Source: Kappaphycus alvarezii (Eukaryota > Rhodophyta > Florideophyceae > Gigartinales > Solieriaceae). Taken from it: a DNA stretch of 64,000 nt. Under the pieces are notes generated by a model. It was not told the DNA's origin, did no database searches, and saw only the letters and a program-made list of their open reading frames with translations. Of the stretch, positions 6,403-64,000 are shown one piece after another. Within the stretch, counting starts at the first letter, position 1; each line of letters opens with the position of its first letter. Location of the stretch: assembly GCA_002205965.3 (NCBI GenBank), contig NADL03000780.1, forward strand, positions 24,932-88,931, in the 5' to 3' direction. Position numbers and translations under genes: made by a program.

Positions 6403-6572
6403 CCACCCTTCATCATAAGTGAGCCATATTGAATTTATTTTCGATGTAGTTTGAGGCGTTTTTTTGTTTGTAACTCCTATGAAAATTTGGACAGAATGAA
6501 ATCTGCACGCCACTTGCATAGAAATGCTATACACAGAAATATTGTTTATACAGCACGAGCATATCGACCATT

Positions 6573-12159: not shown

Positions 12160-12650
12160 CCATAAATATTCGCGAACGGCCTATATTTCTTCATTTACTC
12201 CTTGGAAATATCTAGACCACTGAAGTTGCCCCAATCCGGTTCCAGAGTCCGGACCACCTGGTCCATATTTCCGGCCCCTTCTTCTCTATTACAGCACTTT
12301 CCATGTCTCTCTCCTCCTCATCCTCCTCATCTCCCTTTTCATTCCTCTCTTCATCTTATTCAGGAGAGTCAGATGTCACAATTAATCCCTCATTCTCTCC
12401 TTCGCTCTCCATGGGAGCCCCCGCACCATTGTACTCTCTTGGCTCCCACGGGGCCACCTAGTCCTCTACCTCATCTTTCTTTTCCTACTCTTCATCCTCG
12501 TCTACCTCCTCTCCCTCCTCCTCCTCTGTCTCTTCTGCCTGCTCGAAGCAGTTACGGCGTACCTACATCTGAATGCGTTCCCAGTCCAGTCTTCTACAGC
12601 AATCATTGTAGTCGGTTGGACCCTTTGCCATCAGGGACTAAGCGTTGAGT
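12160..12650 (-). pseudogene. Acidic ORF of family A, decayed paralogue
   Basis: Minus strand, frame-shifted and with stops. The Glu-rich stretch contains EDWVAPWEP, matching EEWAAPELV of the copy at 7.0-7.7 kb. The C-terminal part reads LEPDWGNFSGLDISKE, matching MEPDGGIFSSLDISQE. The plus-strand Pro-rich frame here is only its shadow. Confidence 0.5.
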
Positions 12651-12892
12651 GGACCGCGGCCTCGGGATGACTTGGCGATGTTGAGATAAGTGCGGATTTT
12701 GGTCATTAGGTTGAGTTGATGGAGTAGTTGACGGGGTTGCCTCAACGAATTCGATTTTAAACTTTAAATACTGCGACGTCTTCGAAAAGTATAACAACCT
12801 TGAACGCGTAATGACATCTAATAATGACACTGTGTCTTAAAATAAAAAATCAGCCCATGTATTTGCCACACGCATCCAAAATTAAAATATAT

Positions 12893-13032
12893 TGCAAATT
12901 CAGAAACTCTTACAATATCTTGCAAATTCAGAAACTCTTACAATATCTCGCAAATTCAGAAACTCTAGCGATATACTGCAAATTCAGAAACTGTAACGGT
13001 ATCTTGCAAATTCCGATACTGTATCCAAATTT
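12893..13032 (+). repeat. Five 28-bp tandem repeats
   Basis: Unit TGCAAATTCAGAAACTCTTA plus 8 bases, starting at 12,893, 12,921, 12,949, 12,977 and 13,005 with increasing divergence. Related sequence lies reversed at 10,320-10,400. It sits at the right end of the family A element, so it is subterminal element sequence. Confidence 0.75.
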
Positions 13033-13586
13033 GGACCTATTCTGGATTTTCCATGTTCGATTTTTGCGCACATCACATGGCATTGAAAAATGACAAAAGA
13101 ACAAATTCTGGCCTCCAGTCTCGACTTGTCGAAGTGTTGCAATCGCGAATCATTACCAGCTCCATGGTCATGCTGCTCAATTTTTTTGACGATTCCGGTA
13201 ATCGACCAATGCAATGTTTCAATATAGATACCAGCGAGAGTGATTCCTCAGGGCATGATCGAGCACGTGCGGTATGTTTATCCGATACAGTGCATACCTT
13301 CAACCGATTAATGCTTTGTAATGGTAAAACTATAATTCACCATTAGTAATGGTCGTTTTACCTCCCTCCAGTTACTTTTAGTTACTGGAAATGCTACGTT
13401 ATTCGTACAGTAGACATTGAGGCATATTTTGAGCTGAGGTTCGTAAGACTCCCAACCTCAGAGCAGCTAGCTCAAAGCCGACCTCGTTCACTTTGCTTAT
13501 TACTTGCTTTACGCTGGTTTGGTAAGTCTCCAGAAACACCCGTATGTTCCTTCAGCAATACATCACTTAAAAGTTTCACACCAATC

Positions 13587-13965
13587 TGTAACAGAGTTCT
13601 TATCTGTAATGAAGGACTGTAAGCTTCAGGTGATACTCAGGTACCGTACTCGGTCATTCTATGTTTCGGCTGAGAAATCGGCGTGAATTTGGTCATAAGG
13701 GCACATTTTATTGCCTTGGGGCCTCTAGACTAGGGTGTCGGTCAATATCTGCAGGCGCCCAAATCTCGTTTGTGAGTTATAGTTTGGATTGTCACGATGT
13801 TTCTGCCAAATTATGAAGCCGTATAACGGTGAGACCCCTTTGATTTTATTCAAATGAAAGGTAGGTCAAGGACCTAAGACTGCCTTGCTGGGAAAACGGT
13901 ATAAATATCAGGGAGTGAAGGTAGAGGTAGACGGATAGGTCATCGAACTTCGGGATCATTAAACA
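13587..13965 (+). repeat. Probable solo LTR
   Basis: About 380 bp present in copy 1 and absent from copy 2 of the duplication. It starts TGTAACAGAG and ends TTAAACA, with CAATCT on both sides. A TATA-like GGTATAAATATC lies at about 13,895. No coding sense. A TG...CA block with a promoter-like box and flanking duplication is what a solo LTR looks like; no partner LTR is in the window. Confidence 0.5.
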
Positions 13966-14117
13966 ATCTGCGTTTCTTGGCGAGATTCAATCAAGTTTCC
14001 TAGAATTGCGCGCTCTTGGTAGCCCTTAGTATATGCAAATGCTTCCTCTCTTTCGAGAAGCAGCCGCCAGTGCCATATAAATAAAATTCTAACCACTTTG
14101 CTTTTCCTCTGTGTCTA

Positions 14118-14280
14118 CGAGAAGGTTTTAGGTATTTTACTCTCGGTAAAATATATACAATCTATCTGTTTAGAGACAAGCATTGCAAGGAATGCACACA
14201 AAAATAATAAAAATTGCATCATTATTCTTCTCTCAATCAAATAAATCTTCCAAGAGTAAAACATGCAAGATTTTCTACGT
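14118..14280. repeat. Small inverted-terminal element, copy 1
   Basis: Left end carries GTATTTTACTCTCGG, right end (reverse complement) GTTTTACTCTTGGAAG, about 155 bp apart. The orthologous element at 61,888-62,060 has the same layout, so it predates the segment duplication. The terminal motif is the same one that ends the MSNAACL-family elements. Confidence 0.5.
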
Positions 14281-14475
14281 AGAGATTTTTAAATACTTAT
14301 GTAATTCAAGTGACGTACGTTTTTACTCTAACGTACCTTACTTTTTCGTCATAACAACTAGAAATTAATCTGTAATATATGTCGCTAAAATATCTAAATA
14401 AGAAAACAGTACTTTATCGGATAGATCGAATCAATCGAGCTTTCAGTGATGATGTGAACAAATCTAGATCACCTA

Positions 14476-15290
14476 GGCTCATGCCTGTCACAATTTAAAC
14501 TCTTTGAAGGTGGCTAAAACAGAAGGGGAGGAAGCCGGGGCACTGCTAAAGGGACAGTGGAGACGATAGTGGTGGGTTTCAGAATGTTGGGGGCAAAGGT
14601 CATAAGGCAAAAGTGATATGGAGTTTACCTGGATTCACAAGAATCCAGATGCGTCCCCTTCTATAGACAGTAAGGTAGCAATTCTAAACGACTCTCAGAA
14701 TTGTGCCAGCGCAATGGAAAGCACTAGAAAGCAGAGCTCCACGCAGATTGTAGAGCTGTAACTAAATTATAATACTATTTAGAACTTAAACAAGTCGACG
14801 ACGAGGGGCTCCACGTCAAATAAAAAATACTTTAGAAAACATAAATACTCATCAATAAAACTGCTACTCAATTACACACAGCTTCTACATTCTTCCAAGA
14901 GTGATGCAATTTCTCTGCTACACCACGGTGTAATAGAGAATTTGAATAGGGACAGTTAACAGGTCTCTATTACTCAGTGGTGTAACAGAGACATTGTTAC
15001 AGTGAAACTCAGATGCATATGCAATGCTGAATGACGTGGCAAAGAACGTGACTATGGTCGAACTGGAGACGCATGGAAGTATTGACGGGGTTTGGATGGA
15101 AAGGCAAAGTGCAGCAGCCGTCATGTTCAGTGCGGCCTGCTTGATGTCTGGCCTAAAGAAAAAATTTAGAAAAAGTCATTCCTTTTGCATTACTGTGTCT
15201 GTATGCCTTTTTCGAGTCGATTATGGTGATCTTGAAAACCATGGGATAGATCGAATATATGTTACAAAGAAAAACACCTAAACTTTTTTC
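14476..15290 (+). mobile_element. MSNAACL-family element inserted in copy 1
   Basis: About 0.8 kb absent from the duplicate locus. The frame at 15,024-15,281 starts at ATG and reads METHG-like LETHGSIDG, then SAAAVMFSAACLMSGLKKK at about 15,108-15,158. The block ends with the family 3' terminus (AAAAACACCTAAAC, about 15,270-15,283). A short inverted repeat GTAATAGAGA/TCTCTATTAC lies at about 14,930-14,974. Protein function unknown. Confidence 0.5.
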
Positions 15291-15359: not shown

Positions 15360-15540
15360 TCAAACGGAGAAATAGGGTGCTTTACTGATTAGTATTTTCT
15401 GAGAGTAGCGGGGGCAGATATGTGCCTTGAAGATTGTGAAAAAGAGTCATATTAAGGAAGGAAACTCTTCTAAGGTTGGTGGAAGGCCAGCGTTGGAGAA
15501 AACCGTCGTCGCAGCGTGAGACCGACCGCATCAGCCCTAT
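15360..15540 (-). pseudogene. MSNAACL peptide remnant (minus)
   Basis: Minus strand reads SHAATTVFSNAGLPPTL, equivalent to QRHAAATVSSNAACQTTGL at 62,455-62,545 in copy 2. Its 3' terminal motif is at about 15,360-15,390 on the plus strand (reverse of AACACCCTATTTCTCC). Confidence 0.45.
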
Positions 15541-15819
15541 ATTCATTCCATTAGATCGAGTAAATCTCGCGCTTGGGGGCTGGGACTCGGGGCGTGGTAG
15601 GTCGTCGAGGAACTTGTGGGAACTGCCTTCAGCTGTGTGATTGAACCCGTCTTGGTGCGGTACAGTTTGGGTGTTTTAATGATTAGAAAATATGTTAGTC
15701 TTCGTTACAAAGGGTTACAGGAGGACTTTTGATTACTGTGACAGATTTATTGACTATAATCCAATCACATTCCATATTTGAGTGTTACATTGGGTCCGCG
15801 TAGTGATCAAATCTTAAAA

Positions 15820-15865
15820 GAGAACAACAAGGCCTCTCAACAGACAAGCAGTATTGGACATAACT
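15820..15865 (-). pseudogene. Distal part of MSNAACL gene split by Copia
   Basis: Minus strand reads MSNTACLLRGLV here, while the preceding codons (QRHAEAAV) lie 8.4 kb away at about 24,236-24,260. The Copia element inserted between them. The uninterrupted copy is at 63,345-63,530. Its 3' terminal motif follows at about 15,655-15,690 on the minus strand (ATTAAAACACCCAAACTG). Confidence 0.6.
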
Positions 15866-20153: not shown

Positions 20154-20390
20154 GAAATCACCTATCGTCTCGCCTCGAAGTTTATAGAAGCCCTGGTCTA
20201 TCGAAGCCCTGGTCTATCTCCATCTTGTACCTGAGTAAAGTTCCTCACGACCTTCTCCTCTCTGATCTCCCTTTCTCAGACCCTCACTCTTTCTACCCTT
20301 TCCTCTTTCTCTCTCTCTTCTGCTCTCCCTCACTACAGTCTGGCTCCCTCCATCCCTCTCTCTCGTTCTTTCCATTGCAATCAGCTTCTT
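20154..20390. other. CT-rich/AG-rich tract at Copia junction
   Basis: Plus strand is dominated by CTCTCT runs from about 20,235 to 20,370. It marks the point where the minus-strand Copia RT frame loses similarity (after TTVKKKLIAM), next to the plus-strand LTR. Low complexity, no gene. Confidence 0.5.
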
Positions 20391-21110
20391 CTTAACTGTA
20401 GTCACGTCTGTGTTCGTCTCAATTTCGGGTAAAGAGTCGACGTACGCGACGATGTAGACAATGTCACGACCTAGGCTCCCGATGAAGAGGCATTTGCTTG
20501 ACTTTGCACGACGGAATCCGACTCCGGACATTTTAGCAGTTATGTGTTCGTTCCACAGCTTGGGCGCCTGGCGGAGACCGTGAAGTGATTTCCCCATTCT
20601 TACAGTTGTATTGTTCGCGGAAGAAATTCCAGGGACGGTGAGTATTCGTACCCATATCTTGTCGATTTCGAGCAGTCTGTTGTACAGGAACGCCCTGAAA
20701 ACGTCTAGCTGTTATACGGCCCACTTGTTATAAACGGAATCGGCAAACATCAGACGCACGAGCGCGATGCAGGCCACAGGCGCATACAGCTGAGAATAAT
20801 CGATAACGTCAGCTTGCAGATTCACACGGACTACAAGTCTTGCTTTGTACTTTGCCACGTTGCTGTCGGCGTCCCGCTTGATCCACATGAATATACTCGA
20901 CTATAACTCATCTACTTCTTTCGGAGGGTTGCGTCCATTTCTGATATTCCAGGTCTTATTGCGCTAGATGCTATCGAACTCGTCCTTGATGGCTTCGAGC
21001 CATTTCTGACTGTAAGCCGACTTGAAAGCACGTCCCAACTTGGATTTATCAGGCAGTCGACGATGTCCGTCCGTTTAGCATAACTGCATTTAATGTCACC
21101 ACGTTCCAAC
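20390..21110 (-). pseudogene. Copia reverse transcriptase (minus element)
   Basis: Read downward: FKSAYSQKWLEAIKDEFDSI (about 21,030-20,970), KYKARLVVRV, QLDVFRAFLYN, SLHGLRQAPKLWNEHI (about 20,590-20,545) and IVYIVAYVDSLPEIETN. The catalytic Y-x-D-D is YVDS here. Several stops. The frame ends in the CT-rich tract. Confidence 0.85.
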
Positions 21111-21192
21111 AATGATACGATATCTACGCTCCGGTACAAATTTACTGGATACCAACCCACATATCTACCACAGTAAATTAACCCCCATTTAC
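21111..21192 (-). repeat. 82-bp micro-insertion (type E) with 9-bp duplication
   Basis: Flanked by CGTTCCAAC at 21,102-21,110 and 21,193-21,201. The insert is also found at 25,514-25,600 and 38,465-38,545. In minus orientation it opens GTAAATGGGGGTTAATTTAC, a variant of the conserved terminal motif. It splits the Copia frame between integrase and RT. Confidence 0.8.
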
Positions 21193-21326
21193 CGTTCCAA
21201 CAGACTGTACCCTCTAATGCTTGGTGGTATGTTGTCATCGTCGTTGTCACTTTTTTCGCAATCTTCAGAGAAGTCTTGATTATTGCTCTCTCCATATTGG
21301 TTCGGCTTGAACGGAATGAGCGTCAG

Positions 21327-22185
21327 CTACTCCTTACCAAAAAAGTCTATCGGACCATCCTTCGGCGTGTCGTCATGGACTTCTATTTCGACCATATCTC
21401 CGGCGATGTCATCATCACGCTCACGTTGAGTTCCGTCATCGAGGACTGGCAGTCTCTGAAAGATCTTCTCGTGGAGTTGTTTCGTCCTGACGATTTCGTC
21501 TGAGTGAGGACTAGGTAGACGCCGCCGCCGTCGAAGAAGAAACAAAGACTGTCATTATCTCGAGCCTTGAACGTCCCCAGCTCCCTGAATGAACGCCGTT
21601 AACTGATTGACAGCCAAAGGGACGCACATGCGACAGACGAGGTGGACGTCGACCGTCGTACCGAGTGGTCCCAGAAGCGGAGCGGAAGCTTGGGTTGTGC
21701 GAGACATGTCTTTGCTAGGCCGAGAATCGGCGGCTACGTGCTCTCGGCAAGTCCGTCTGGCTTTGTTGTATACGGCAACGTTATCGACACTTTACACCTT
21801 GATACGCCAGCGCATCGAGCGTGCGGGTGAAGCCGGGCCCACCATCGGTGTGAAACCTTTTTACTGTACAGCCGTTTTGCCGTTCGTAGAAGCGCACGAA
21901 GCGGAGGACTGCTTCGGATGCGTCGGTCTTCGACTTGATTGGGCGGACAGCAGTATAGCGCGAGTACCCATCAACTATACAGACAAAATGGTGCTGTCCG
22001 CTGACGGATTCCGTCTCTATGCTCCCCTTTTTGTCGAATTGAAGAGTGCTTATCTCAGTGGCATGGGTCAAGGAGCCGGCGAATCGGCGGCGATACTTGC
22101 CTTTGAGACAGTCTTTACAGTCTCTGGCCGTGCACAACGTGTGTGGCAACAACCCGGACTGGAATTCACATCCAAAAGCCTTCAA
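21327..22185 (-). pseudogene. Copia integrase
   Basis: Zinc-finger/pre-integrase part CTARDCKDCLKGKYRRRF, then a core with HHFVCIVDGYSRYTAVRPI (first D) and KRFHTDGGPGF (second D), frame-shifted after about 21,781. A basic/acidic tail is at 21,327-21,545. The 223-codon plus-strand frame over this region is its shadow. Confidence 0.85.
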
Positions 22186-22890
22186 GAGGAGTGCGTAACC
22201 CAGGCTAAGGTGCAGGAGTGTGACGGTACCGTCCTTTGTCTTGATTGGCTTCCGCCTTTTTGGTTATGCAGGAGTTGACGGTTAGTCTTCAGTGTCGTCA
22301 GCGCCCCCTGCACTGCTAGTGCTGACATCGCTGTCGGTTCCGTCATCTGTCGCGCCTCGGATGGGTATATAATGTTTTGCACATCTTCTGCGGCTGCGCA
22401 GCTGGTCGGATCCGTCTCGAGCATATCTCTCGCGATGGCCATAATGGCGGAGGCATTCTCATCTTCAGAGTCGGAAAGGCGAGGCAGCGATCTCGAACCG
22501 TCGTTGCATACGTAGAACACGTCGTTGCATACGTAGAACAGTAAGTCGCGGTCTTGTTCAGCGTAACCAAGTGTAGACGTGAAGTCTCGAAATTCGAAGA
22601 GGATGGCACGTCTCGGGATGAACAGTACCCCAATACCCTTCTTCACCAACGATGGTACCGAAAATTGGCCTATGAATGCATTCGCGCCAACGAGTATGTC
22701 TGACAGGCTAACTTTCTGCGTGTCAGAGTCCGTCGGAAAGCGTACTTTGGGCACGCCTTTGTGGCTAGCCCTTACTGTCGATTCGTCGGCTATTCTGATC
22801 TTTGTGTAGCATGGCGATTTAGACTGGACGCGTTCTTCGTGCGCGTGATTTGCGACGTCGTACCGCTGTCAAGCACCATCCTGTCGGCTT
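22186..22890 (-). pseudogene. Copia protease region
   Basis: VLDSGTTSQITRTKNAS places the active-site DSG at about 22,862-22,870. Downstream SVPSLVKKGIGVLF and ILFEFRD match the conserved spacer between protease and pre-integrase. The linker contains a tandem duplication (FYVCND twice). Confidence 0.8.
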
Positions 22891-23756
22891 TTAGTCCTTT
22901 GAGTGACGTACCGTCGCGCACCATGGCAAAACGCTCTTCGTTCTTTTTTCCTTCCAATGCCTGTCTGATTTACAGCCTTCCTGCGGGTCGCAAAGCTTCC
23001 CGCCCATGATATCCTTCACGAATTTGGACGGTACATCAACGCGGGTATTCTTACCAAGCTGGTTGAGGAAATACTGCGACGTCGAATGGCTAGTCTTATG
23101 ACAGATCTGACATCGACCGTGCGCCGCGCTCACCCTGCAATTTTGCGACCCGTTTGACGGAAACGACTTGGCTTCTTCAATCAGACGGCTCGTCACTTCT
23201 TCCCATGTGATGTAGGATTTTGCCAGTGTCTTGATAGCGGCAGTCACCGGCTGCAGGTAGAGTGCGTCAACGGAAGCGACAAGTATTCCCATACCGAGCG
23301 ATTCGTCGAATGTCGTCCCCATGCTGCGGAGTTGCTCCACTAGCGCGACCATCTTGTCGAAGTGTTCCGACATGATTCTTTTAGACAAATTTACCACGTC
23401 GAAACGAGTTCCGACATCTTGGCAATCTTCGAGACGGTAGAACGCGAGTTTTACCGTCGGTCGAGCTTTGCAAACATCTCCGCCGGATTGCCAATGACAG
23501 CGCGAAAGACGCGCAGCACCTGATCGCTAAGCGTAATAACAATCAGAATACTCGCTTTGCGACGATGTTCCGCGTCGTCGGTGACGAAATCTTCGGCAGC
23601 GTTCGAGGCGGTTCCCTAGGTGCTTAACGAAGATAGCGACAAAGTCTTTCTCAGTCCTTTCGCGTCGATCGCGGCTACGATGCTAATGCGACATAGCGAG
23701 TAGTTTGTTTTGTCGTCGAGCGCGTGGATGCGAATCCTCTCGTCGTGATCGGCCAT
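22891..23756 (-). pseudogene. Copia gag (UBN2 type) with zinc knuckle
   Basis: Probable start ATG at 23,756 (MADHDERIRIHALDDKTNYS, then a W-to-C change in the usual NYxxW). The capsid part continues through VLRVFRAVIGNPAEMFAKLD and FDKMVALVEQLRSMG, and a knuckle CQICHKTSH lies near 23,095. At least two frame breaks. Order and content are those of a Copia gag. Confidence 0.85.
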
Positions 23757-23776: not shown

Positions 23777-23840
23777 TCTGGAAAACCATGGGATAGATCG
23801 GATATACCTTCCAAGAGTAAAACACCCAAACGTTTCCTCC
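23777..23840 (-). repeat. 64-bp micro-insertion (type D) with 11-bp duplication
   Basis: Flanked by GTTCTGCCAGG at 23,766-23,776 and 23,841-23,851. The minus strand carries TTTGGGTGTTTTACTCTTGG, as at 47.65 and 58.92 kb. On the plus strand it is bounded by CAG|GTCTGG and TTCTGCCAG|G, so a GT-AG excision would restore the target exactly. It lies in the leader between LTR and gag. Confidence 0.8.
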
Positions 23841-23917: not shown

Positions 23918-24228
23918 TTTAGAATCTGGCGAAAGTTGTCTAGGTAAGATGCCCCCGATTTGCTTTATTAAAGACAATCCATAAGTACTAGCGTAGTTGT
24001 GTCGAAGTTTGCGTCATATTTTGGTGACGTTGTCTCACGTAAGCATAATGCATGTGCCACTCTAAATAGGCGTAACTAAATCTAATAAGGAGATGACTGT
24101 ACAGTCTGCATAGCTGTACGCCAGAGAAGGAGGAACTGTCGGAACGAGTTGGGTGCAAGCGCCGGCGCGCACTAGCGCACGCGTGCACTGGAAAGTACTG
24201 CACTGGCACTGCGCGACACATCTCAGCA
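23918..24228 (-). repeat. 5' LTR of minus-strand Copia
   Basis: Partner of 15,866-16,176, same length. Starts TGCTGAGATG in element orientation. Flanked by AAACT (24,229-24,233), matching TAACT before the other LTR. Confidence 0.85.
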
Positions 24229-24235
24229 AAACTGC

Positions 24236-24676
24236 TGCTTCAGCGTGCCTTTGAATCAGCAAGGCTCTGACTTTGCGATATGTTTCCATGGTACACATAG
24301 TCTCGTTCCTCACAATCTCGGTAAGCACGGCATGTGAGTCCGGGTAGCAATCGCCGAGAATAGATATAGGTACATTCATAAGTCTACCTCTGGCGGAAGT
24401 TGGAAAGAGTGCTAGTTACTTCTTATGTTTTGTAGTGCTTGTCGCGCTGAGGGATGTCAATCGGTTTCGACCAGGCCCTCTTCTACTGGAGGGTGCTAGA
24501 AGGTTCACAATGGGGACATCGAAGAAGTCGAAGTTAACAATCCAGTTCGACTTGGTTTGTTCTAGGTGGTTTGGGAGGGCTCTGGATGCTTGGCAAAAAG
24601 GCATATTTAGCGTGGCAATATCATTTTTAGTTTTATTTTGCCTGTAGACATTTCCAGATGCATTGCTGTTGCGCAT
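24236..24676 (-). pseudogene. MSNAACL-family protein, proximal part (copy 1)
   Basis: Minus strand carries FDVPIVNLLAPSSRRG and LTSLSATSTTKHKK at about 24,530-24,416. After a frame change come ILGDCYPDSHAVLTEIVRNE and METYRKVRALLIQRHAEAAV, down to 24,236. The gene is cut by the Copia LTR, with its end at 15,820-15,865. It is homologous to 63,345-63,793. Confidence 0.6.
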
Positions 24677-25513: not shown

Positions 25514-25622
25514 AAATGGGGGGTTAATTTACTGTGGTAGATATCTGGGTTGGTATCCAGTAAATTTGTACCGGAGCGTAGATATCGTATCATTGTCAAG
25601 CCAATTGCGAAACCGTACAAAA
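25514..25622 (+). repeat. Type E repeat with adjoining Copia scrap
   Basis: Second copy of the 82-bp sequence (GTGGTAGATATCTGGGTTGG ... CGTAGATATCG). It is followed by about 23 bp matching the RT piece at 38.44 kb (reads VKPIAKPY). The shared junction with 38,443-38,545 means both loci descend from one rearranged Copia. Confidence 0.65.
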
Positions 25623-25829
25623 AACTTTGGGTGCTTTAATGATTGAAAAATAAGGTCGTCTGTAGTCCCAGATAACATTGGTATGTGAATGTACGGTCTT
25701 GCAATGTCACAACCTGCGCGTAAGTCCAACAGTTACTGAAACACGTCCTCAATCTAATATAGCTCCCATGGGTCGGTCGTCACCCTCCACAAAATTAGAG
25801 TCAGATCAATTCATCCACCTAACCGGCAC

Positions 25830-26210
25830 ACACACGCGCTCAGTTCCATAGGGACCCTGTAGAGGCAAACCGGTGGTCGTCTCCAGGCTCGTAATAGCCT
25901 CGCTCGCGCGCCTACTGTGCGCCTGGCCATAGACGACTTCGGGGTTAAATATGATGGAGGCGGCTTCCGAAGAAAATGAAGGCTTCACATCATCGACAGA
26001 TGATGAGCGTGAGGGGCTTGGTAGACAAGATATTTTGCCGGTGGTTTGTTTGTTATAGAGGCTGATGAAACAGGGCTCAGTTCCAAAAGGGCCAAGTTGT
26101 TCGCCGTTTCCGAGCTCGTAATATGCTCACCCACGCGCCATGTATACGCCTGCCCATAGGTGACTTCGGGGTTTAATGTGATAGGGTGGCTTTCTAAGAC
26201 CCTCTACCCT
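25830..26210. repeat. Two diverged direct repeats of about 140 bp
   Basis: 25,830-25,975 and 26,068-26,210 share GGCTCAGTTCC, GCTCGTAATA, CGCCTG.CCATAG and GACTTCGGGGTT. On the minus strand both read a peptide of the form PEVxYGQA ... ITSxET. Origin unknown. Confidence 0.6.
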
Positions 26211-26256
26211 CGGAGGATGACACCCGGGCGCCCACGTGTTGTTAACCGACGTCCCA

Positions 26257-26497
26257 CGCAACGTCGCCACGAGGGCAAGCGAGACCTATGCAAAGGTGAA
26301 AAAAGTCTCAACACAGCGTGATGCCGCAGCAGCAGAGATGTCCAATGCAGCGTGCCTGTTGGCCGGCCTCCAGTCAATCTTCTAGTGTTTTGACGGCCCC
26401 CCGCCCATCCTTTGCATTATAAGCCTTTACCATCACGACATGCCTCAGGGAACAGCTGACCATATTTTTCACGCATTAAAAACACCCCAAATTTCCC
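26257..26497 (+). mobile_element. MSNAACL-family unit, 241 bp
   Basis: Nearly same length and limits as 63,046-63,285: both start CGCAASGTCGCYACGAGG and end CACCCCAAATTTCC. An open frame reads RASETYAKVKKVSTQRDAAA, then EMSNAACLLAGLQSIF and a TAG at about 26,384. The remaining 110 bp is a 3' tail ending in the family terminus. Confidence 0.7.
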
Positions 26498-26705
26498 ACG
26501 CCTTCTGAGAAGATAGAGGCTGCTCGTTACTTATTGGTAACGGGCGTAAGGGGTTCGTTAGACACGGAACGTTGACGATGGTGCTGTCTGATCTGAGGAC
26601 TGAAGGGGCAAGCTCGGGGTCCTAGCGAATTTCTTCATAGACGGTGCCCAAGTGAAGAGCACCAAAGTGCCGTCTTGCGCGTTGTTCTAGTAGTGGGGAA
26701 TTTAG

Positions 26706-26775
26706 GGGTTATTTTAATGCATGGAAGATGTGGTCGGTTATACTCACGAGGCTAATACGTTATGCGGGATAAGTC
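26706..26775 (-). repeat. MSNAACL-family 3' end, truncated
   Basis: Reverse complement matches 6,325-6,400 over about 75 bp (CGTATTAGCCTCGTG, CCATGCATTAAAATAACC). It ends at AAATTCCCC and abuts the LINE RT remnant. Confidence 0.55.
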
Positions 26776-27360
26776 CTCGCTGATCCGTTGAAATTCGTCG
26801 AGGAGAGTTTGGAGGAGGGAAGGGTCGTGGGAGTGGAGGAGGACGTCGTCTGCGAATAGTTTGCATGGAGGAGGGAGGCAGAGGGAAGTCATGATGTCCG
26901 TCAGGGCCTCGGGAAGTGGTGGTAGATCTTTATTTGTCGTACAATGTCGCACGGAGGCGTGCGGAGGGTATTCATAAATTAACTACGGATGCGGGCGGCG
27001 GGTAGAAACCTGTCGCGCCTGCATTATTTGGAGGCTAAATGCAAAACGGGTAAGGCCGTTAATAAAGACATTGAAAAGGAGTGGGGAGAGAGGGGAATCT
27101 TGGGTGAGACCGAGGCGGATTTCCGTTGTCGTAGAGGTAGAGACGTCTCTTTTGCGGACCGTGAGGGGCAGGAGGCATGCTGTTATCATGGCTGTTTCTG
27201 TGTGGGAGAGCATGCGTCCGCAGTCGTGCAAGAGCAGTTGACGGTTGACCCTGTCGTAGACCTTGAACATGTCCAGGGCAGCGAGCCAGCGATCCCCTTG
27301 TCTTATGGCTGCTTCCGTGGCTATGAGAGCGTGGAGGGTTGGAATGGAAAGTGAACAGTG
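26752..27360 (-). pseudogene. Non-LTR (LINE) reverse transcriptase remnant
   Basis: Minus strand: HALIATEAAIRQGDRWLAAL and DMFKVYDRVNRQLLLHDCG, then EIRLGLTQDSPLSPLLFNVF and ING. After an interruption (26,921-27,056) it resumes with DLPPLPEALTDIMTSLCLPP and CKLFADDVLLHSHDPSLL. YDRV, GxxQxSPLSP and FADD are the RT palm motifs of LINEs. Endonuclease and 3' parts are absent; a family unit cuts it at about 26,760. Confidence 0.8.
26921..27056 (+). repeat. Family B insertion in LINE RT
   Basis: About 130 bp between the ING and DLPPLPEAL codons of the RT frame, matching the repeat at 9,797-9,936 and ending GCAAAACGGGTA. Its position inside an otherwise contiguous RT domain shows it is an insertion. 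Confidence 0.65.
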
Positions 27361-27983: not shown

Positions 27984-28205
27984 GCTGTGCAGTACGGTAC
28001 TGTACGGTACTGTACTAAACAATTCAATCTTACCCCTTTGTCATTTAGAGGCCAGAGTACTCAAAGTACCTACGCCGCCTCAAAACCCTTCTTGCTTTTC
28101 AGCCCGTCAAAGTCTCGCAAGAAACCCCTAACTCCTCATTCCTCATTCCTGAGTTCAACTCGGTCACTGGTCTGGGAACCAATGGTCTGGGAACCAAGTA
28201 CTATC

Positions 28206-29573
28206 ATGGATTATGTCGCCATCTACGAATTAGCTGGAAACAAGAGAGACCAGAACGGTGGCATGCACATTCCCATTTTCACTTGTGCCAAATCTTTCGG
28301 TGAAACCTATGCACGCTCTGTATCCTTCGGTCTCAGCGCAATTTTCAAAACGGTCAGCAAATCTGATGTCGATATCACAGAAGTTGTTTTTAGATATCTG
28401 TTGAAGGTTTGCGCAGGGCAAGTAAGAGACGAAGATATTGACAAATTATACGTAGATGTTATCATGGGACTCGCTCATGGGAAATTGTCAGTGTTCGCCA
28501 TCTCGTACAAGCATCAGGTGTTTGGTGGACCATACGGCAAAAGGCAGAGATTAAGGAGGAACGGAATCAGAAAGATGGCCACGGAAATCGTCGAACACGC
28601 TCGACTTGCCCGTACAGAACTGTTTTGCTTTTGGTTGGACCAGATTCTTGGGCAGAGAAAGCCGAAATCGGAGAGAAGATGGGTCGACAACGGCCTGTTG
28701 CCATACGCCACGTTCGATACTATCGTCTTTGACTATACTGCTGCAGAGAGGGGAGCATGGCTCTTATCTGAGCTCTTGTTGGCTCAAGGAAGACGGAACT
28801 CTTCTCAACCAGGGCACCATTCGCGATTGATTAGACGTGATCGGCTCGAGGGTGGTCCTGATTCTCTCATGCGTGCCGCCTCCGCTATCGCATGTGGCGT
28901 TATTGATGAGGAGAGAGGCCAACTCCAGGACAAAACAAGTATAGTGAATTGGGCACTCGAAACACTAGACATGTCTGCCTTTATGAAGGGAAACCAGATC
29001 GAACATTTCACGAGATTGATGTATGCTCGAAAACCGTGGGACCGTGTTAGACTATCATCAGTAATGTTCAACCTCGAAGTTCTTCCAAAAGAGTTGGAAC
29101 GGAGTAACAAGGGGCTCGAATGGAAGCACGAGGAGCAATTTCTTAGCAAACTGATACCGCATGATCTTCGATCATGCTGTGATGGGGCTTGGCTCTCTAA
29201 AGTTCGGACCATAGTATACAAGACGAATTTGGCAAACAGATTCGTTTTCTTCCAACATTTTTATCGCTCAATAAGGGACTCGCTTCTGGTTGTCGCAGTT
29301 GTGTCGAATGCTGAAAACAAACCGGACAACCAGGTGCACAGATACACGGCTATTGCATTCGATGAGCTTACGAACGATAAAGCGGCAGAAGTTGTTCGTA
29401 GTGGACGCCCTAGGATCGAATGGGACCCAGTCGTGGACTTTTTGCGTCGCTGTGAAATCTCCTCGCTTTCGCAGATCAAAGAATTCGACGGCCAGTGGTT
29501 TGGTGGAGGTCAGACAGAAGAAAAGTCTCGTTACATTGGTACAGTAACTAATTTTCTTGATAGCAGACAGTAA
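28206..29573 (+). CDS. HET-domain-like protein (tentative), intact
   Basis: Uninterrupted frame, 455 residues from ATG 28,206 (MDYVAIYELAGN). An ATG at 28,182 is an alternative, and the frame is open further up to 27,987. The N-terminal 210 residues show a spaced pattern like the heterokaryon-incompatibility (HET) domain: FAISYKH near 97-103 (family ALSYxWG), EIVEHARLARTELFCFWLDQ near 127-146 (family Ax..r.lg..yLWID..C..Q), a Y-A-x-x-D-T-I-V stretch near 167-174, and ERGAWLLSELLLAQGR near 181-196 (family RgWtlQE.lLs.R). The C-terminal half is not recognised. In fungi HET proteins trigger self/non-self cell death; a role here is only inferred. The intact frame among decayed repeats implies selection or recent arrival. 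A further open stretch in another frame overlaps the end (29,557-29,829), so a longer product through a frameshift is possible. Confidence 0.6.
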   Translation: MDYVAIYELAGNKRDQNGGMHIPIFTCAKSFGETYARSVSFGLSAIFKTVSKSDVDITEVVFRYLLKVCAGQVRDEDIDKLYVDVIMGLAHGKLSVFAISYKHQVFGGPYGKRQRLRRNGIRKMATEIVEHARLARTELFCFWLDQILGQRKPKSERRWVDNGLLPYATFDTIVFDYTAAERGAWLLSELLLAQGRRNSSQPGHHSRLIRRDRLEGGPDSLMRAASAIACGVIDEERGQLQDKTSIVNWALETLDMSAFMKGNQIEHFTRLMYARKPWDRVRLSSVMFNLEVLPKELERSNKGLEWKHEEQFLSKLIPHDLRSCCDGAWLSKVRTIVYKTNLANRFVFFQHFYRSIRDSLLVVAVVSNAENKPDNQVHRYTAIAFDELTNDKAAEVVRSGRPRIEWDPVVDFLRRCEISSLSQIKEFDGQWFGGGQTEEKSRYIGTVTNFLDSRQ

Positions 29574-35365: not shown

Positions 35366-35442
35366 TTACTGCGCACCCTCTAGGATATTTCAGACCACAA
35401 CCGACCATATTTTCAAATATTAAATCAACCCACATTTTCCCC
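35366..35442 (-). repeat. 77-bp micro-insertion with 10-bp duplication
   Basis: Flanked by CTGCTGAAAG at 35,356-35,365 and 35,443-35,452. Minus strand opens GGGGAAAATGTGGGTTGATT and continues GAAAATATGGTCGG, the same terminal motif that ends the 26.26 and 63.05 kb units (CAAATTTGG-type, GACCATATTTTT). Confidence 0.75.
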
Positions 35443-35452
35443 CTGCTGAAAG

Positions 35453-47645: not shown

Positions 47646-47712
47646 GGAGAAAGGTTTGGGTGGTTTACTCTTGGAAGATATATCTGAACTATCCCATGGT
47701 TTTCCAAAAGCC
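47646..47712 (+). repeat. Type D repeat, about 65 bp
   Basis: GAAAGGTTTGGGTGGTTTAC followed by ATCCCATGGTTTTCC, matching the reverse complement of 23,777-23,840 almost throughout. I see no flanking duplication here. Confidence 0.65.
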
Positions 47713-53944: not shown

Positions 53945-54130
53945 CAATTACCGATCAAGAAAAACTTTTTTCTAGGAAATTCTTGTTCCTTTTCCTTCTA
54001 AGAAACACCCAACAGTACTTAAAGGTATAATATTCCTCTAAATAAAGATGAGAGTCATCGGACGTTCATACACTTCTGGATTCCAAACCTTCGGTCCCGA
54101 CCTGCGCACACGATTGAATATTCGTCAGCA
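53886..54130 (+). repeat. 3' LTR of Gypsy element
   Basis: Starts TGAAGGGTACG inside the end of the last pol frame, as is common; TATA-like GGTATAATATTCC at about 54,024. Confidence 0.75.
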
Positions 54131-54229
54131 TAACTGCTTGGAACAGAAATATGTTTGTGAGCGCCTGAGTTGCTCGTGAATTCTCAGCAAGACAAGAGTT
54201 AACTCTAAAACTTCATTGATATGTGTATA

Positions 54230-54700
54230 TCCTAAATAGTTAATTTGAAATAAATGAAAAATAAATCGATTGAATAGGACTGGGAACAATATTGAAAACA
54301 AAACCAACGTTAATTGAGAGATGGGGATAATTCGATGGCCCGAGGATTTCTAAATTTTTCTAACAGCCCAAGGCTATTTATACTGCACATCATAGTGATT
54401 TTCTGATTCCAATAGTAGAAGAATTCTTGCAGAAGAAATTCATGCTCAATAATAATTAAAGAAACTTTACCCAAGTGAGCATTAATCCGAATAATAATTT
54501 ACTGGCAACATAATTCTTATAATTATAACTTTGGAATTTAAAAACCAACTGACAGAAATCAAAAATGATTCAAGTGTTTTACGGTACAAACGATGGGCCA
54601 GAGTGAAATAAAAATCGTTTCACAATTTTTCATCACTTATTGGACATGGAAAACCAATGAAATAGTTTTTCAATACTTGCAAAGTTGTTTTCCAGTGTTA
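54230..54700 (+). repeat. AT-rich repeat, copy a
   Basis: Aligns with 56,990-57,275 plus 57,866-58,130 (GGCCCGAGG, TCTAAATTTTTCTAACA, CAATAATAATTAAAGAA, CACAATTTTCATC). About 470 bp; copy b is split by a 590-bp insertion. The two copies flank the minus-strand retroelement at 54.8-56.7 kb as direct repeats, so they could be its LTRs. Confidence 0.6.
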
Positions 54701-58130: not shown

Positions 58131-58398
58131 ATTTTCCGTTCACAGCGTCGTCCGTCGACTTTGCATACGTCTCTGGTAGACAACCGCGGAGCTTTGTCGT
58201 TATGTGCGACATGACAAGGGTGTGGGATGTAAGGATCTCACTTAGAAAGTGCAGAGACTGTTCACAGGGGTCAGGGTTCTGTGATGCGATGTTGGCCCTC
58301 TGGTTTGGAGCTGAGGGAGCTGGGTCATCTGAAACCGGTACCGGTGTATTGTAGTCGACCTCATCCAAAGGAATATGCTCCAGGACAACCTGATCCAT
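58078..58398 (-). CDS. Unrecognised ORF, 106 codons
   Basis: ATG at 58,398: MDQVVLEHIPLDEVDYNTPV, Pro/Ala-rich middle, then HFLSEILTSHTLVMSHITTK. Its last 17 codons run into the AT-rich repeat, so the original protein was longer and has been truncated. No domain recognised. Confidence 0.35.
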   Translation of the reverse strand: MDQVVLEHIPLDEVDYNTPVPVSDDPAPSAPNQRANIASQNPDPCEQSLHFLSEILTSHTLVMSHITTKLRGCLPETYAKSTDDAVNGKFGKINLQVLENHLIEFP

Positions 58399-58923
58399 GT
58401 CAGCGATAAAAAATGTTCTTCGGCCAACTTTCGGCGGTTACTTACTGCTTTTCTTCTCTGATCGGGCTGCGAACGAGTATACCTCCTAACCGGACAGCCA
58501 GCCGACCGTCTTCGTTATTATCGTTCGCAACGACCCTCCAGTGCCAACAAACAGTTTCTGAAACGAGTATTCGTTAAACGAGTATTCTCATATTGAGGAA
58601 GCGGTTTCCAAGCGACGACTTGATGTCAGCAATGTTACCAGTTATTGAAAGTCATATTTGGCTGCAATGTTATCTGGCGTGCAAACTTGATATTTCCAAC
58701 GGCTATCTCAACCGAAATTTTCGAATTTTGATGATCTCCCTGGAGATCACGCCGAGACGAAACGATCACGTTTTTAGGTTGAGGTAGTGCAGCGTGGCCG
58801 AGGTGTGGGAAGGGGGCGATCTGGACGAGGAATCCCTCGCGAGCGCTAGAAAGGCTCGGACAAGGGGTAGATAGATGTGATAGAGAATTTCTGTACCTTT
58901 GGTGGAGATGGAGGTAATGAGGG

Positions 58924-58965
58924 GAAAGGTTTGGGTGGTTTACTCCTGGAAGATATATCTGATCT
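58924..58965 (+). repeat. 42-bp micro-insertion with 11-bp duplication
   Basis: GGTAATGAGGG at 58,913-58,923 and 58,966-58,976 flanks just the core motif (GAAAGGTTTGGGTGGTTTAC then TCCTGGAAGATATATC). The smallest member of the D/E-type insertions. Confidence 0.8.
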
Positions 58966-58976
58966 GGTAATGAGGG

Positions 58977-59719
58977 TGATGTGCGCCCAAAGGAGTCATC
59001 ACGAAGGAAATATGTTAGTGAGAAACGAGGTAGACCACAAGGCGTGCCGCTCGGACACGGTCCGCGCCGTGGCCTGTGCCGTGTGCGCGGAGGCAGCTTA
59101 GGAGGGGAGAGGAAAGGAACGGGTGGGAAAGAGACTAGAAGGTCATGATTGCTCAATAATGTGAAAGGATTTTATTTTTCGCTGATTCTCCAAATTTCGA
59201 GCTTCCTGGAATCCCCAAGAGTAATTCGTTCTTGCACTGCTTCATGGATTGCGCCCGGCAACTTCTTTTGCGATGGTGTTTTTTGCCAGCAAATTACACT
59301 GGACAGGATAGTCTTAGACAGACTTAAAGTCCAGTAAACCTAGCATACTCGTGCTCTACTATAATATGTTGAAGACCCAAATAACTGTGTGGGAAATTGG
59401 TGCAGCTCCCGTCAGTGCATAACACAGTAGATCGGCCTGGAAGCACCACAGTTCCTTACAGTAGCTGGAAGGTAGCCTGTACCTTAGCCAAGTGAACTTG
59501 GCGATTTTCCCTGTCCTCCTGGACACCCGGGCGTCGCCTCCGTGATTAGGGCAAAAAACAAAAAAAGAACCCAAGAGCAGGACGGTCATACTCAGGCGTA
59601 TTCGTTTACCAATAATTGGATGCTGTAGATCTTGCAATATGAGCTCCCGATGAGCTTCCAATGAAGTTGATCTTGCAAGAACTACAGCTGTGCGACAAGG
59701 AATCGCTACTTGTCAAGAT
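58977..59719. other. No recognised gene
   Basis: A 100-codon minus frame (59,359-59,661) with MTVLLLGSFFVFC could be a hydrophobic tail of the LamG gene in another frame, but nothing supports it. Pro-rich minus frame at 58,635-59,156 looks like a shadow. Confidence 0.3.
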
Positions 59720-60361: not shown

Positions 60362-61887
60362 AAGATGCTACGAGACGACTAGATGCTGAGGATTTTGTGA
60401 TGTGATATCTATGAATGTGGCGCGTTGATGATATCACCATGGTTCTTATACAATCTGATTGAAGACCAGTTTCCCTCTTCAACTGACTGTGTGCTTCAGC
60501 CCAGAGTTTAGAACATGTCAAAGAGTTACTACAGAGGGGCGTAGGAGATTGCTTCAAACGATTGTGGACAGAATCTAACACGGTGCAGGAGCAGAAACAA
60601 GATTTCAGGAGGACCACTTGCTCAGAGATTACATGTGGGCCACAGCTATCTTATTGATGATTGGGAAAGGTTTGGGTATTTTATTCTCGAATGATATAAT
60701 GCCTCTATCATGTTGCTACAGTCATGACTCGAGACATGGGTTGAGGTTGAGATACAGGGACCAAATGCATCCTTACTCTCGGGACATAACCGTTCAATGT
60801 CACTAAAAAATAAGGCATCAAACCCTTTATTCTATGATCATCTCCGTTTATTGAGCTCATTTGGAACCCAATGTAGTCAAATATGAACATCTTTATCAAA
60901 TACATTGATAAAATGGGGTTCATGGCGGCTTACTGCATCGTATTGGGGCAAGGAAAGAAAACACGGCCATAAGGGGCTATATGCGCCTTACAAACGATTT
61001 TGCGCTTGAGCTCTTGTTATCTGTAATCGATAAGGCTGTCGGTAGCGACTAACAAAGTTTCCGTTTCTGAGCTTGCAAATGGTATAGATATTCGAATCGA
61101 GTTGAGTAATATATACCTAAAAAATTTACAGGGATCTATCGACATGATCGCAGTAACGAGTTATAGAATGTTGTAGGTGTGAGATCTGTCAGGTCTCTGT
61201 CAACTATTAGTTTTGTAATTGCATGGCATTGAAAAATGACAAAAGATCAGAATTTGTCCTTCAGTTTCGAGTGCTCGAAGTGTTTCAGCCGCACTTTACT
61301 ACCACTTCCTCTGGTCACACTGCTCCGTTTTTTTGGCGATTGAGCTAATCTTACAGTAGAAGGTTTCAATATAGATATCAGCGTGAATGATTCCTCCGGG
61401 CATCATTGAGCACGTGCTGCATTCGCAGTGTTTATCGGATACAGGGCAGAGCCTTCACGGATTTACGCTTTGTAATGTTAAAACTAAAATTCATCATTAG
61501 GAAGGGTCTTTTTTCCCTTCCCCCAGCTACTTCTAGTTTCTGGAAACGCTGCGTTATTCGCACAGTAGATTTTGAAGCAAGTTTGAATTCAGGTTCATAA
61601 GACTCCCAACCCTGGAACAACTCGCGTGAAGGCCACCTCATTCACTGTGCTTATCCCTTGTCTTACGCTGGTATGGTAAGTCTCCAGAAACAGCCGTATG
61701 TTCCTGTCAGCAGCACATCACCCAAATTTTTTTCATCAATCTGTGTTTCTTGGCGAGGCTCAATCCAGTCTCGCAAGATTACGCCCTCTCGTTAGCCTTT
61801 AGTACATACAAATGTTTCCTACCTCTCGAGAAGCAGCTGCCAGTTCCACATAGAATAGAAAATCTGACCACTTTGCCCTTTATCTGT

Positions 61888-62060
61888 GTTTAGGGGATTG
61901 GATATAAGTGTTTTACTCTTGGGAAATATATTCAATCCATCCGTTTAGTGACAGACAGTGCAAGAAATACACAGGCAGATGATAACAATTACATCATCAT
62001 TCTTTCCTCAATCGAATAAATCTTCCAAGAGTAAAACACGCAAACCTTTCCCAGTGGGGA
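61888..62060. repeat. Small inverted-terminal element, copy 2
   Basis: Left GTGTTTTACTCTTGG, right (reverse) AAGGTTTGCGTGTTTTACTC with CTTGGAAG. Orthologue of 14,118-14,280. Confidence 0.55.
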
Positions 62061-62324
62061 TTTTGAATACTTATCTAAATCAAGGTACAGTACGTGCTTG
62101 CTCTGACCTACATTACTTTGAGGTCATAACAAAAAGGAATTTTACTGTTTATGTCGCTAAATTATCGATATTAGAAGACGGTATTTTATCGGATAGATCG
62201 AGTCAAGCGTGCTTATGTGAGGATATGAAAACTTCCGGATCGGTCATTCAAAAAAAGGAGAACGAATTACATCCATAAAACAATATGAGTTTCAAATTTC
62301 AACTCTGATTTAATTCAAACGGGG

Positions 62325-62560
62325 GAAATTTGGGGTGTGTTACTGATTTGGGATGTCGAACGGCTATTTTCTGAGACTAGCGGGGGCAGGTGTTTGTATT
62401 GAAGAGTGTGAAAAGGAGGCAGAGTAAGAAGGGACAATCTCACAAGGCTGGAGTAAGGCCAGTCGTTTGGCATGCCGCGTTGGACGAAACCGTCGCCGCA
62501 GCGTGTCTTTGCATAAGGACAGATCGCACCCGCCCCACAGCCATTCATTTGGATCTAGTA
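62325..62560 (-). pseudogene. MSNAACL-family C-terminus (minus)
   Basis: Minus strand reads LMQRHAAATVSSNAACQTTG then LTPAL and TGA. Its 3' tail ends at about 62,325 in AACACACCCCAAATTTCCCC. Counterpart of 15,360-15,540. Confidence 0.6.
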
Positions 62561-62639
62561 TATCTTCCAACAGTAATAACATCCAAACTTCCCCCTTTAG
62601 TCTGGAATTCACCTCCAACAAAGGACAAGACTGGATATT

Positions 62640-62935
62640 AGGGTGGTAAGAGTAGCTGGTGAAATGAACCTTTTCTACGTAACGTTCGTCAACCCTCTTG
62701 CACCTTTCTATGCCAACGCGGAGAGATTCAACCTCCTCACGAGCCTCCACGCAGCCCACGCAGAGAAGAAGCGGAAAAAGAAGGATTTCGTGTCGAATTC
62801 CCGGTTAAAAGCAGGTTAGTTCCCTTCCCCATCTAAGCGCTCGGAGGCTGGCACCCGGGGATGTGGGAGGTCGTCAAGGAACTCGTGAGAACCGTCGCCA
62901 GCCGCGTGATGGAACGGGTTTCAAAGGGGGAAAAT
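62640..62935 (+). pseudogene. MSNAACL-family upstream block (plus)
   Basis: NLFYVTFVNPLAPFYANAER and FNLLTSLHAAHAEKKRKK at about 62,667-62,790, homologous to FVNLLAPYSRR ... LTSLRAKSTA on the minus strand at 63.6 kb and to 24.5 kb. A second frame further on reads MWEVVKELVRTVASRVMERV and ends in TGA at about 62,937. Confidence 0.5.
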
Positions 62936-63045
62936 TGAGGTGTTATAATAATTGAAAATAGTTTAGCCTTTGTTCCAAAGAGGGAAACGAAGGGGTTCGA
63001 TTACTGTGACAGATGTATTGGCTATAACCCAATCACAATGCATAT

Positions 63046-63285
63046 CGCAAGGTCGCTACGAGGGCGAGGGAGACCTACGCGAGGTCAAACAAGTCTTAAC
63101 ACAGCGTCATGCCACAGGGGCAGCGATGTCCAATGCAGCGTGCCTGATGACCGTCCTCCAGCCAGTTTTCTTAGCGTTTTGACGGCTTCCGCCAATCCTT
63201 TACATTGTAAGCCCTTACCCACATCACGTCCCTTAGAGAACTGCTGACCATATTTTTCATTTATTAAAAAACACCCCAAATTTCC
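63046..63285 (+). mobile_element. MSNAACL-family unit, 240 bp, inserted in copy 2
   Basis: Absent at the matching place in copy 1 (15,775). Same limits as 26,257-26,497. Frame: LREVKQVLTQRHATGAAMSN, AACLMTVLQPVFLAF and TGA at about 63,180. CATAT occurs before it and again at about 63,294-63,298, a possible target duplication. Confidence 0.7.
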
Positions 63286-63344
63286 ATCATTTCATATCTG
63301 AGTGTTACAATTGATGCGTGTAGTGAGAAACCTTAAAAGGGAAT

Positions 63345-63793
63345 ATCAAGGCCACTCAACAGACAATCTGCATTGGACATAACTGCTGCTTCAGCGAGCC
63401 TATGAATCAGCATGGCCCGGACCTTGCCATATGTTTCCATGGCCCTCACAGTCTCGTTCCTCACAATTTCGATAAGCACGGCATATCCGTCCGGGTTCAA
63501 ACAGCCGAGAATACGTATTGGTAGAGGCACAGGTTACCTCTGGCGAAAACTGGAAGGAGAGCTGGGTCCCTCCTATGTATTGCAGTGCTTTTCGCCCTGA
63601 GGGATGTCAATGGGTTGCAACGCACTCTTCTACTGTAGGGTGCTAGGAGGTTCACAAAGGTGACATCGAAGATGTCGATACCCCCTGTGCTCCCTGGTGC
63701 TCCAAATTCCAACAAATAACTGATACAAATATTCGACATGAGGGAACCAGGATATCCGTTTAGATTCCCCCCACTAGAAGTGTCGGACGACAA
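63345..63793 (-). pseudogene. MSNAACL-family protein, uninterrupted copy
   Basis: Minus strand: GGIDIFDVTFVNLLAPYSRR, CNPLTSLRAKSTAIHRR (63,690-63,580). After a frame change come IRILGCLNPDGYAVLIEIVR, NETVRAMETYGKVRAMLIHR and LAEAAVMSNADCLLSGL, then a stop near 63,335. Copy 1's equivalent is split by the Copia at AEAAV|MSN. Function unknown; not a known transposase or RT motif. Confidence 0.6.
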
Positions 63794-64000
63794 AGTAAAC
63801 TACCCCATCATTACCCCCGGAACCAGGAAGCGGTGCGAGGGATTCTTTTACAACCACAAAGGCAGTAATCTCCATTGCGGCTTGTTTGCTTGCTGGTACA
63901 ATGGAGCATCATCAGCGACTGCTGCAAGCTTTCAGGTACATGCTCACTACCAACACACAAGTTGACTGGGTATCAGCCAGCCTATCTGTTACAGGAAATT

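Follow-up and report, generated by a model that had tools for sequence, protein, structure and literature searches.

What kind of repeat leaves the same short peptide at scattered places along one stretch of DNA, and to what protein does that peptide belong? The question arises at positions 63046–63285 of the window, the 64-kb stretch of Kappaphycus alvarezii DNA analyzed here. A preliminary description had read variants of an MSNAACL peptide at nine places in the window, followed where traceable by a constant tail, and had proposed that these copies and a set of micro-insertions arose by retroposition with loss of 5′ sequence. We conclude that the repeat is almost certainly a dispersed non-LTR retrotransposon (LINE) of the R2 group, with one ORF, a central reverse transcriptase (RT), and a probable C-terminal restriction-like endonuclease (RLE) that ends in the MSNAACL peptide.

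Peptide and Tail Copies in the Window

We searched the window by tblastn with the C-terminal 130 aa of two intact genomic elements that lie outside it. A peptide of the MSNAACL type was recovered at seven of the nine places (6.2, 15.1, 24.3, 26.3, 62.5, 63.1, and 63.4 kb; E ≤ 1e-3). At the other two, the tail DNA was confirmed by nhmmer but the peptide was not: the peptide match is weak at 15.8 kb, and there is no tblastn match at E ≤ 1 at 15.5 kb (Table 1). The similarity among the peptides far exceeds chance, with five C-terminal queries giving 26 window hits at E ≤ 1e-3 (three of the queries were taken from the window, thus including self-hits, and two from elsewhere in the genome). At the same threshold, these queries gave no hit on the reversed window and none on each of three shuffles.

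DNA profiles (nhmmer) showed that the similarity among copies continues past the stop codon to a common terminus. In the 6.2-, 26.3-, and 63.1-kb copies, the tail runs ∼100–130 bp beyond the stop and shares a terminus of the form ..CATTAAAA(A)(C/T)ACC.. to ..TTCC. The claim of a single constant tail, however, had to be amended. The window holds two tail types, with constancy within each, and the two terminus types point to two subfamilies. The micro-insertions proved to be pieces of 3′ tail, as had been described, and three in the window are flanked by target duplications. Nine window insertions were tested for duplications over 10 intervals (one copy was tried twice); three of the nine have a duplication of 10–11 bp, and the other six, among them the copy at 63046–63287, share ≤6 bp. 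For the micro-insertion at 58922–58965, the first two C's of the duplication CCCTCATTACC may belong to the element.

The interval 63046–63285 is the extent of a match to the last ∼240 bp of an intact element. The copy that occupies it is matched by nhmmer at 1.6e-78 (it is a seed of that profile) and has a degenerate duplication, with 6 bp common to both flanks. This copy appears to sit inside an older copy on the opposite strand, of which it would separate the coding part (63326–64000) from the tail (62927–63045), because the joined pieces match a related copy at 15830–15662 by nhmmer at 2.6e-19. Moreover, blast and tblastn searches with reference elements placed LINE fragments at many points of the window, including RT and N-terminal pieces.

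Table 1. Copies and fragments of the LINE in the window
Positions	Strand	Feature	Evidence
6180–6405	+	Short copy, peptide and tail	nhmmer 5.5e-54 (profile seed); tblastn 5.2e-5
14946–15290	+	C terminus of a copy, second terminus type at its end	tblastn 6.9e-13; terminus 15290–15234, 6e-12 (profile seed)
15372–15491	-	c5-like tail, peptide not recovered	nhmmer 3.2e-13
15662–15864	-	Tail-bearing copy, weak peptide match	nhmmer 2.6e-19; tblastn 0.05
23777–23840	+	64-bp micro-insertion, second terminus type; target duplication GTTCTGCCAGG after CG	
24227–24529	-	C-terminal coding part; peptide ends after AEAAV	tblastn 6.5e-29
25622–25710	-	Weak 3′ tail	nhmmer 1.4e-4
26202–26498	+	5′-truncated copy, last 296 bp	88.5% to L029 element
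26695–26797	-	3′ tail of another copy	nhmmer 9.6e-16
35366–35443	+	78-bp micro-insertion, L030-type tail; target duplication CTGCTGAAAG after CA	90.3% to last 72 bp of L030
47376–47596	-	RT-domain fragment	tblastn 1.1e-14
47647–47705	-	Second-type tail; no duplication found	nhmmer 1.4e-17 (profile seed)
54117–54335	-	Weak N-terminal fragment	tblastn 5e-5
58138–58374	-	N-terminal fragment	tblastn 1.1e-9
58922–58965	-	44-bp micro-insertion, second terminus type; target duplication (CC)CTCATTACC after CA	
59181–59333	-	Fragment of post-RT region	tblastn 5.7e-8
62322–62541	-	Short peptide-bearing copy (c5), tail end at 62322	nhmmer 1e-9; tblastn 9.9e-9
62580–62926	+	Fragment of endonuclease region	tblastn 62580–62801 and 62810–62926; 1.4e-17 for group
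62927–63045	-	3′ tail, probably of the 63326–64000 copy, separated by the 63046–63287 copy	nhmmer
63046–63287	+	5′-truncated LINE, last 242 bp: ORF C terminus, 3′ UTR, terminus	85.5% to L029 positions 3998–4237
63326–64000	-	Older copy, coding for the C terminus from RLE region to peptide; extends beyond window	tblastn 63336–63700, E to 1.5e-28

Other sequences share the window with these copies. It contains 10 ORFs of ≥150 aa, and a laminin-G ORF is present. A Copia-type LTR retrotransposon, broken into gag, rve, and RVT_2 pieces that occupy different frames (matches at 20.2–23.5 kb), lies at 20200–23530 on the minus strand, and an uninterrupted frame of 529 codons at 27984–29573 on the plus strand has no Pfam match at E ≤ 0.01. 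We found no relative of the 529-codon ORF in viral contigs, none of the Copia region in plasmids, and no match to 62300–63400 in phage records; Rfam gave no family at gathering score on the window. Two copies of a dispersed multi-part region (11085–14292 and 60614–62067) are ∼77–84% identical piecewise and have no LINE coding matches, yet second-type termini are present in them. Finally, a 28-bp unit is repeated five times in tandem at 12882–13020, with inverted relatives at 10312–10422.

The Peptide Ends an RT-Encoding ORF

Full-length copies of ∼4.2 kb with intact ORFs are present in the genome, and in these MSNAACL is the extreme C terminus of a LINE protein. The two intact frames, L029 (1226 codons) and L030 (1230 codons), both end in MSNAACLL[AG]GL followed by the terminus, and both carry an RT upstream of the peptide (Pfam RVT_1, 1e-7 and 1.1e-9). 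From the N terminus onward, they have Cys/His motifs, the RT domain, a CCHC-like motif, and the RLE-type motif RPD-X13-D. In L029, the motifs read C-X4-C-X9-H-X3-C, RHD, and RPD-X13-D, and the CCHC-like and RPD..[DE] motifs are conserved in relatives. A CPLC..H..H motif near the frame start was read by eye, with no zinc finger scored by Pfam at E ≤ 1. At that threshold, RVT_1 was the sole Pfam domain in L029 and L030, with neither a match in the endonuclease region nor Ulp1, and three peptides assembled by hand had no Pfam match.

We compared the protein with known structures. In a profile comparison with the PDB, which covers R2 and LINE-1 alone among LINE clades, R2 proteins matched best (3.8e-21 to 4.2e-9) and LINE-1 proteins gave 4.6e-9 to 6.1e-8. 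A second match, collinear and weak (i-Evalue 0.014), fell in the C-terminal region of R2Tg. With a model of residues 430–1226 (pLDDT 75), the first seven Foldseek rows were R2 entries, and in VIA-align these seven rows extend to model residues 791–797, whereas six LINE-1 rows end at 548–603. The whole model aligned to R2 with an rmsd of 8–9.4; spliceosomal Prp8 chains also cover the whole model, at an rmsd of ∼14–16. Membership in the R2 group, which takes in the RLE clades CRE, NeSL, R2, HERO, and R4, is supported. Folded alone, the endonuclease region gave a poor model (pLDDT 49). Because of this and the lack of a Pfam match, the endonuclease call draws on the motifs, the weak profile match, and the whole-model alignment, and it is made less firmly than the RT assignment.

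The protein is conserved where this could be measured. The RT gave a dN/dS of 0.09 and the final 60 codons gave 0.10, at a dS close to 2; elsewhere in the ORF, synonymous change is saturated and the ratio was not computable. Of the 9031 candidates at first look in an RT search, 98 were scored, and at least 102 matches were returned. Among nine related proteins from elsewhere, four carry a C-terminal motif RHAA..V..NA.CLL, with variation, of which MSNAACL is one version. Seven of the nine were aligned over this part (all but P0008 and P0009), and the remaining three of these, P0003, P0006, and P0007, end before the motif. Two of the nine relatives, P0004 and P0008, carry a Ulp1-type peptidase domain (PF02902).

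Truncated Copies and Target Duplications Across the Genome

We then turned to the genome, a 336-Mb assembly in 884 contigs. The 18-mer terminus AAATTTGGGGTGTTTTTA occurs 2402 times at ≤2 mismatches, against 64 occurrences of the pattern read backwards. A sample was drawn from the first 44 of 100 exact 18-mer places listed, one of which repeated its neighbor's flanks and was dropped, leaving 43 copies picked by their 18-base 3′ terminus only. These copies are anchored at the 3′ end and differ at the 5′ end, in agreement with the preliminary description. Their lengths range from 23 to >2600 bp with a median of 160 (for four copies, the stretch examined gives only a minimum length); 17 of the 43 are ≤100 bp and 7 are ≥1 kb. 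An all-against-all comparison of 29 termini showed that coverage drops away from the 3′ end and that the longer copies have the same upstream sequence in common.

Target duplications of ≥8 bp flank 17 of 40 testable copies, whereas in 200 shuffles of the flanks the number averaged 0.17 and never exceeded 2. The other 23 copies have no duplication of this length, and three of the 43 copies were excluded from this test for too little upstream sequence. In the shortest class, a 25-bp insert (L004) is made up of nothing but the terminus and is flanked on both sides by ATATGATATG, a 10-bp duplication, and inserts of ∼55, 57, and 85 bp (L002, L011, and L012) lie between exact repeats of 10–13 bp. 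Full-length L029 and L031 are flanked by exact 11-bp duplications; a target duplication of its own was not found for L030. From 10 further full-length copies, seven were used: one had no recognizable tail, one had no duplication above 6 bp, and one, with a 9-bp candidate duplication ∼200 bp upstream, was not counted. At the 5′ joints of 15 truncated copies, with the tail C-run allowed for, 10 have 1–5 bases that fit both element and target, three have no common bases, and two have 2–4 extra bases.

The element has an RT ORF, no LTRs, a constant 3′ end with 5′ truncation, and duplications of variable length, as LINEs do. The idea that the micro-insertions are dead-on-arrival copies fits the genome-wide truncation and duplications, and the earlier reading of 5′-truncated retroposition is supported.

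Insertion Site Preference

Among 25 sites selected for a duplication of ≥7 bp, of which a few may be due to chance, 19 have the dinucleotide CA directly before the duplication, once any C-run is passed, compared with a window background of 8.2% (binomial p 2e-16), and the last base before the duplication is A at 24 of the 25. These sites comprise 16 truncated copies and nine full-length ones, L029 and L031 included. The duplication often begins with C, which is indistinguishable from the C-run at the element's end. Two of the three window micro-insertions with duplications also follow CA, and the third follows CG. The 3′ flanks printed for 40 copies are all different.

Exchangeable 5′ Modules

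Full-length copies have 5′ starts in common, one per module. With the L029 module as query, 36 of the 39 other matches listed start at positions 60–71 (40 scored of 65 candidates), and with the L031 module, 16 of the 17 best nonself matches start at 65–72 (40 scored of 44). Although 4.0 kb of L029 and L031 (C629 and C109) match at 97.5% identity, the 5′ modules of the two are unrelated. Conversely, the C141 element (L081) has an L029-type module (97%) and 5′ UTR block (97.7%) with an RT only 65% identical to that of L022. From these swapped pairings of module and ORF, we infer that 5′ regions have been exchanged between subfamilies.

Between the duplication and the L029 module, six full-length copies have filler that belongs to neither (L052, 18 nt; L054, 91 nt; L056, 27 nt; L058, 24 nt; L060, 34 nt; and L029, 62 nt). 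With the L031 module, filler measures 0 nt in L062, ∼4 nt in L070, and ∼66 nt in L031. Extra bases at the 5′ joints of the 15 truncated copies amount to ≤4 nt. For Drosophila R2, nontemplated bases and microhomologies are reported at 5′ junctions, and fillers of 18–91 nt were not found in the available portion of that report (PMC2718515).

A 262-nt block of the 5′ UTR (L029:3791-4052:- and L030:3792-4053:-) is 90% identical, although the coding dS between the subfamilies is ∼2. It holds two copies of CACGTGGCCAC exactly 185 nt apart, and a ∼110-nt core seems almost unchanged among copies, L073 included. The block may be a functional RNA, or it may have been exchanged recently. Its RNA structure gave z values of -2.4 and -0.5 in two copies, and the six sequences are too alike for covariation to be judged. 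The two 5′ modules folded with z of ∼-2.1 each, and the 3′ end folded with z of 0.45. In 12 further 5′ regions, the block was found in three (E < 1e-10), one gave a chance-level hit, and eight gave none, where the fetched stretch possibly missed it. Rfam returned only SgrS below threshold (E 0.58) on L022, L029, and L031, nothing on L030, and no known ribozyme on any of the four.

Proposed Mechanism

The element probably works like R2, by target-primed reverse transcription with a one-ORF protein that carries a C-terminal RLE. The endonuclease would nick the bottom strand across from the base that follows CA (CA^C), and the 3′ end released by the nick, in many cases a G, would serve as primer on the element RNA at its C-rich 3′ end (..AAACACCCCAAATTTCCCCC). 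Reverse transcription would often halt early, the top strand would be cut ∼7–11 bp away, and joining of the short cDNA would commonly involve microhomology of a few bases. The expected outcome is many 5′-truncated copies, a large share of them <100 bp and unable to move again by themselves; the 63046–63287 copy is one of these truncated copies. We infer these steps from established knowledge of R2 and LINEs, and also the nick site and the pairing of the G-ended primer.

A further proposal is put forward tentatively. The element might belong to a separate lineage of dispersed RLE LINEs, outside the named R2-group clades, whose insertion no longer depends on a fixed genic target but follows a minimal CA^C rule. 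In such a lineage, very short copies would be a main product, 5′ regions would be exchanged, and many full-length copies would carry 18–91 nt of foreign filler, either from RT jumping to other RNAs or from donor-flank sequence at the RNA 5′ end.

Alternative Explanations

Some window termini face each other in inverted orientation (25618 with 26498 and 62927 with 63287, for example), as they might in a DNA transposon or MITE with inverted terminal repeats whose transposase included the peptide. However, genomic copies are single-ended, the 25-bp insert of L004 is the 3′ end alone between its duplications, full-length copies begin with sequence unrelated to the terminus, and the ORF upstream encodes an RT. 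We give an inverted-repeat transposon practically no credence and dropped it on account of the single-ended micro-copies with duplications; the facing termini are taken to be neighboring insertions in opposite orientation. Conservation of the peptide at the protein level would also suit a nonmobile host gene family that includes pseudogenes and whose proteins end in the peptide, but a host family is extremely improbable given the RT domain, the duplications around exact inserts, the 3′-anchored truncation, and the dispersed sites. With 17 of 43 copies at ≤100 bp, the micro-insertions could instead form a separate SINE or other nonautonomous family that borrowed the LINE 3′ end. Against such a family, lengths spread from 23 to >2600 bp with no common 5′ end, the longer copies run into the same ORF, and no common head sequence was seen, which makes it very unlikely. 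The dispersed LINE, with its own truncated copies, is the reading that we retain.

Whether this LINE might belong to a named site-specific clade, Utopia or NeSL, and have lost its target touches the clade name, not the mechanism. Two of the nine relatives carry Ulp1, as do NeSL elements and Utopia-1_TSP; in nematode NeSL, the Ulp1-like protease is N-terminal. Weakly specific Utopia families are described (PMC4640811, available part). In contrast, the LINE's own ORF has no Ulp1, and we consider membership in either clade possible but doubtful.

Comparison with Known Systems

R2 has as its target one site in the 28S rDNA. The present element resembles R2 (R2Tg and R2Bm) in having one ORF with an RT, a CCHC-like motif, and an endonuclease motif of the PD..D form, and R2 is its best PDB match, by profile as by Foldseek. 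It differs in that its sites are dispersed, following CA with duplications of ∼7–11 bp, with no fixed 28S site. Because the insertion sites are dispersed, both R2 proper and a strictly U2-specific Utopia element are disfavored. The element is a further, dispersed member of an already known kind, the R2-group LINEs. Being scattered at high copy number, with full-length copies that are nearly identical and keep open frames, and preferring two bases at its insertion site, such a relative would supply a natural set of very many junctions. These could address how far reverse transcription extends, where the second strand is cut, how the 5′ end is joined, and how target choice is loosened, questions beyond the reach of a single-target element. 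Moreover, genomic inserts of 25–80 bp can be complete retrotransposition events. R2 is itself described, in the source text available, as under development as a gene-insertion tool.

The endonuclease of the Entamoeba LINEs is of the restriction-like type. Drosophila R2, like the present element, has 5′-truncated copies with microhomology at junctions, as far as the accessible report goes (PMC2718515). Utopia and NeSL, described as RLE LINEs that target U2 snRNA or spliced-leader genes, with some weakly specific families among Utopia, resemble our element in its probable RLE and in the Ulp1 domain of two of its relatives (PMC4640811, available part). Our element differs from both in its dispersed sites and in an ORF without Ulp1; in particular, all 40 flanks differ, unlike a U2 snRNA target, as judged by flank diversity alone. 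The majority of RLE LINEs have been described as inserting at specific targets (PMC4640811), and the HERO clade and some R2-like RLE LINEs are reported, in the text available, as not strictly so (PMC4640811; PMC7650587). Because of these exceptions, dispersed insertion is the rarer habit yet has precedents, and it is these elements, compared by description only, that our LINE resembles in having a probable RLE without a strict target. The Entamoeba LINE/SINE system offers a further likeness, again by description and not by sequence: its insertions are dispersed and bear target duplications, which the available part of the source attributes to the LINE-encoded endonuclease (PMC3118788).
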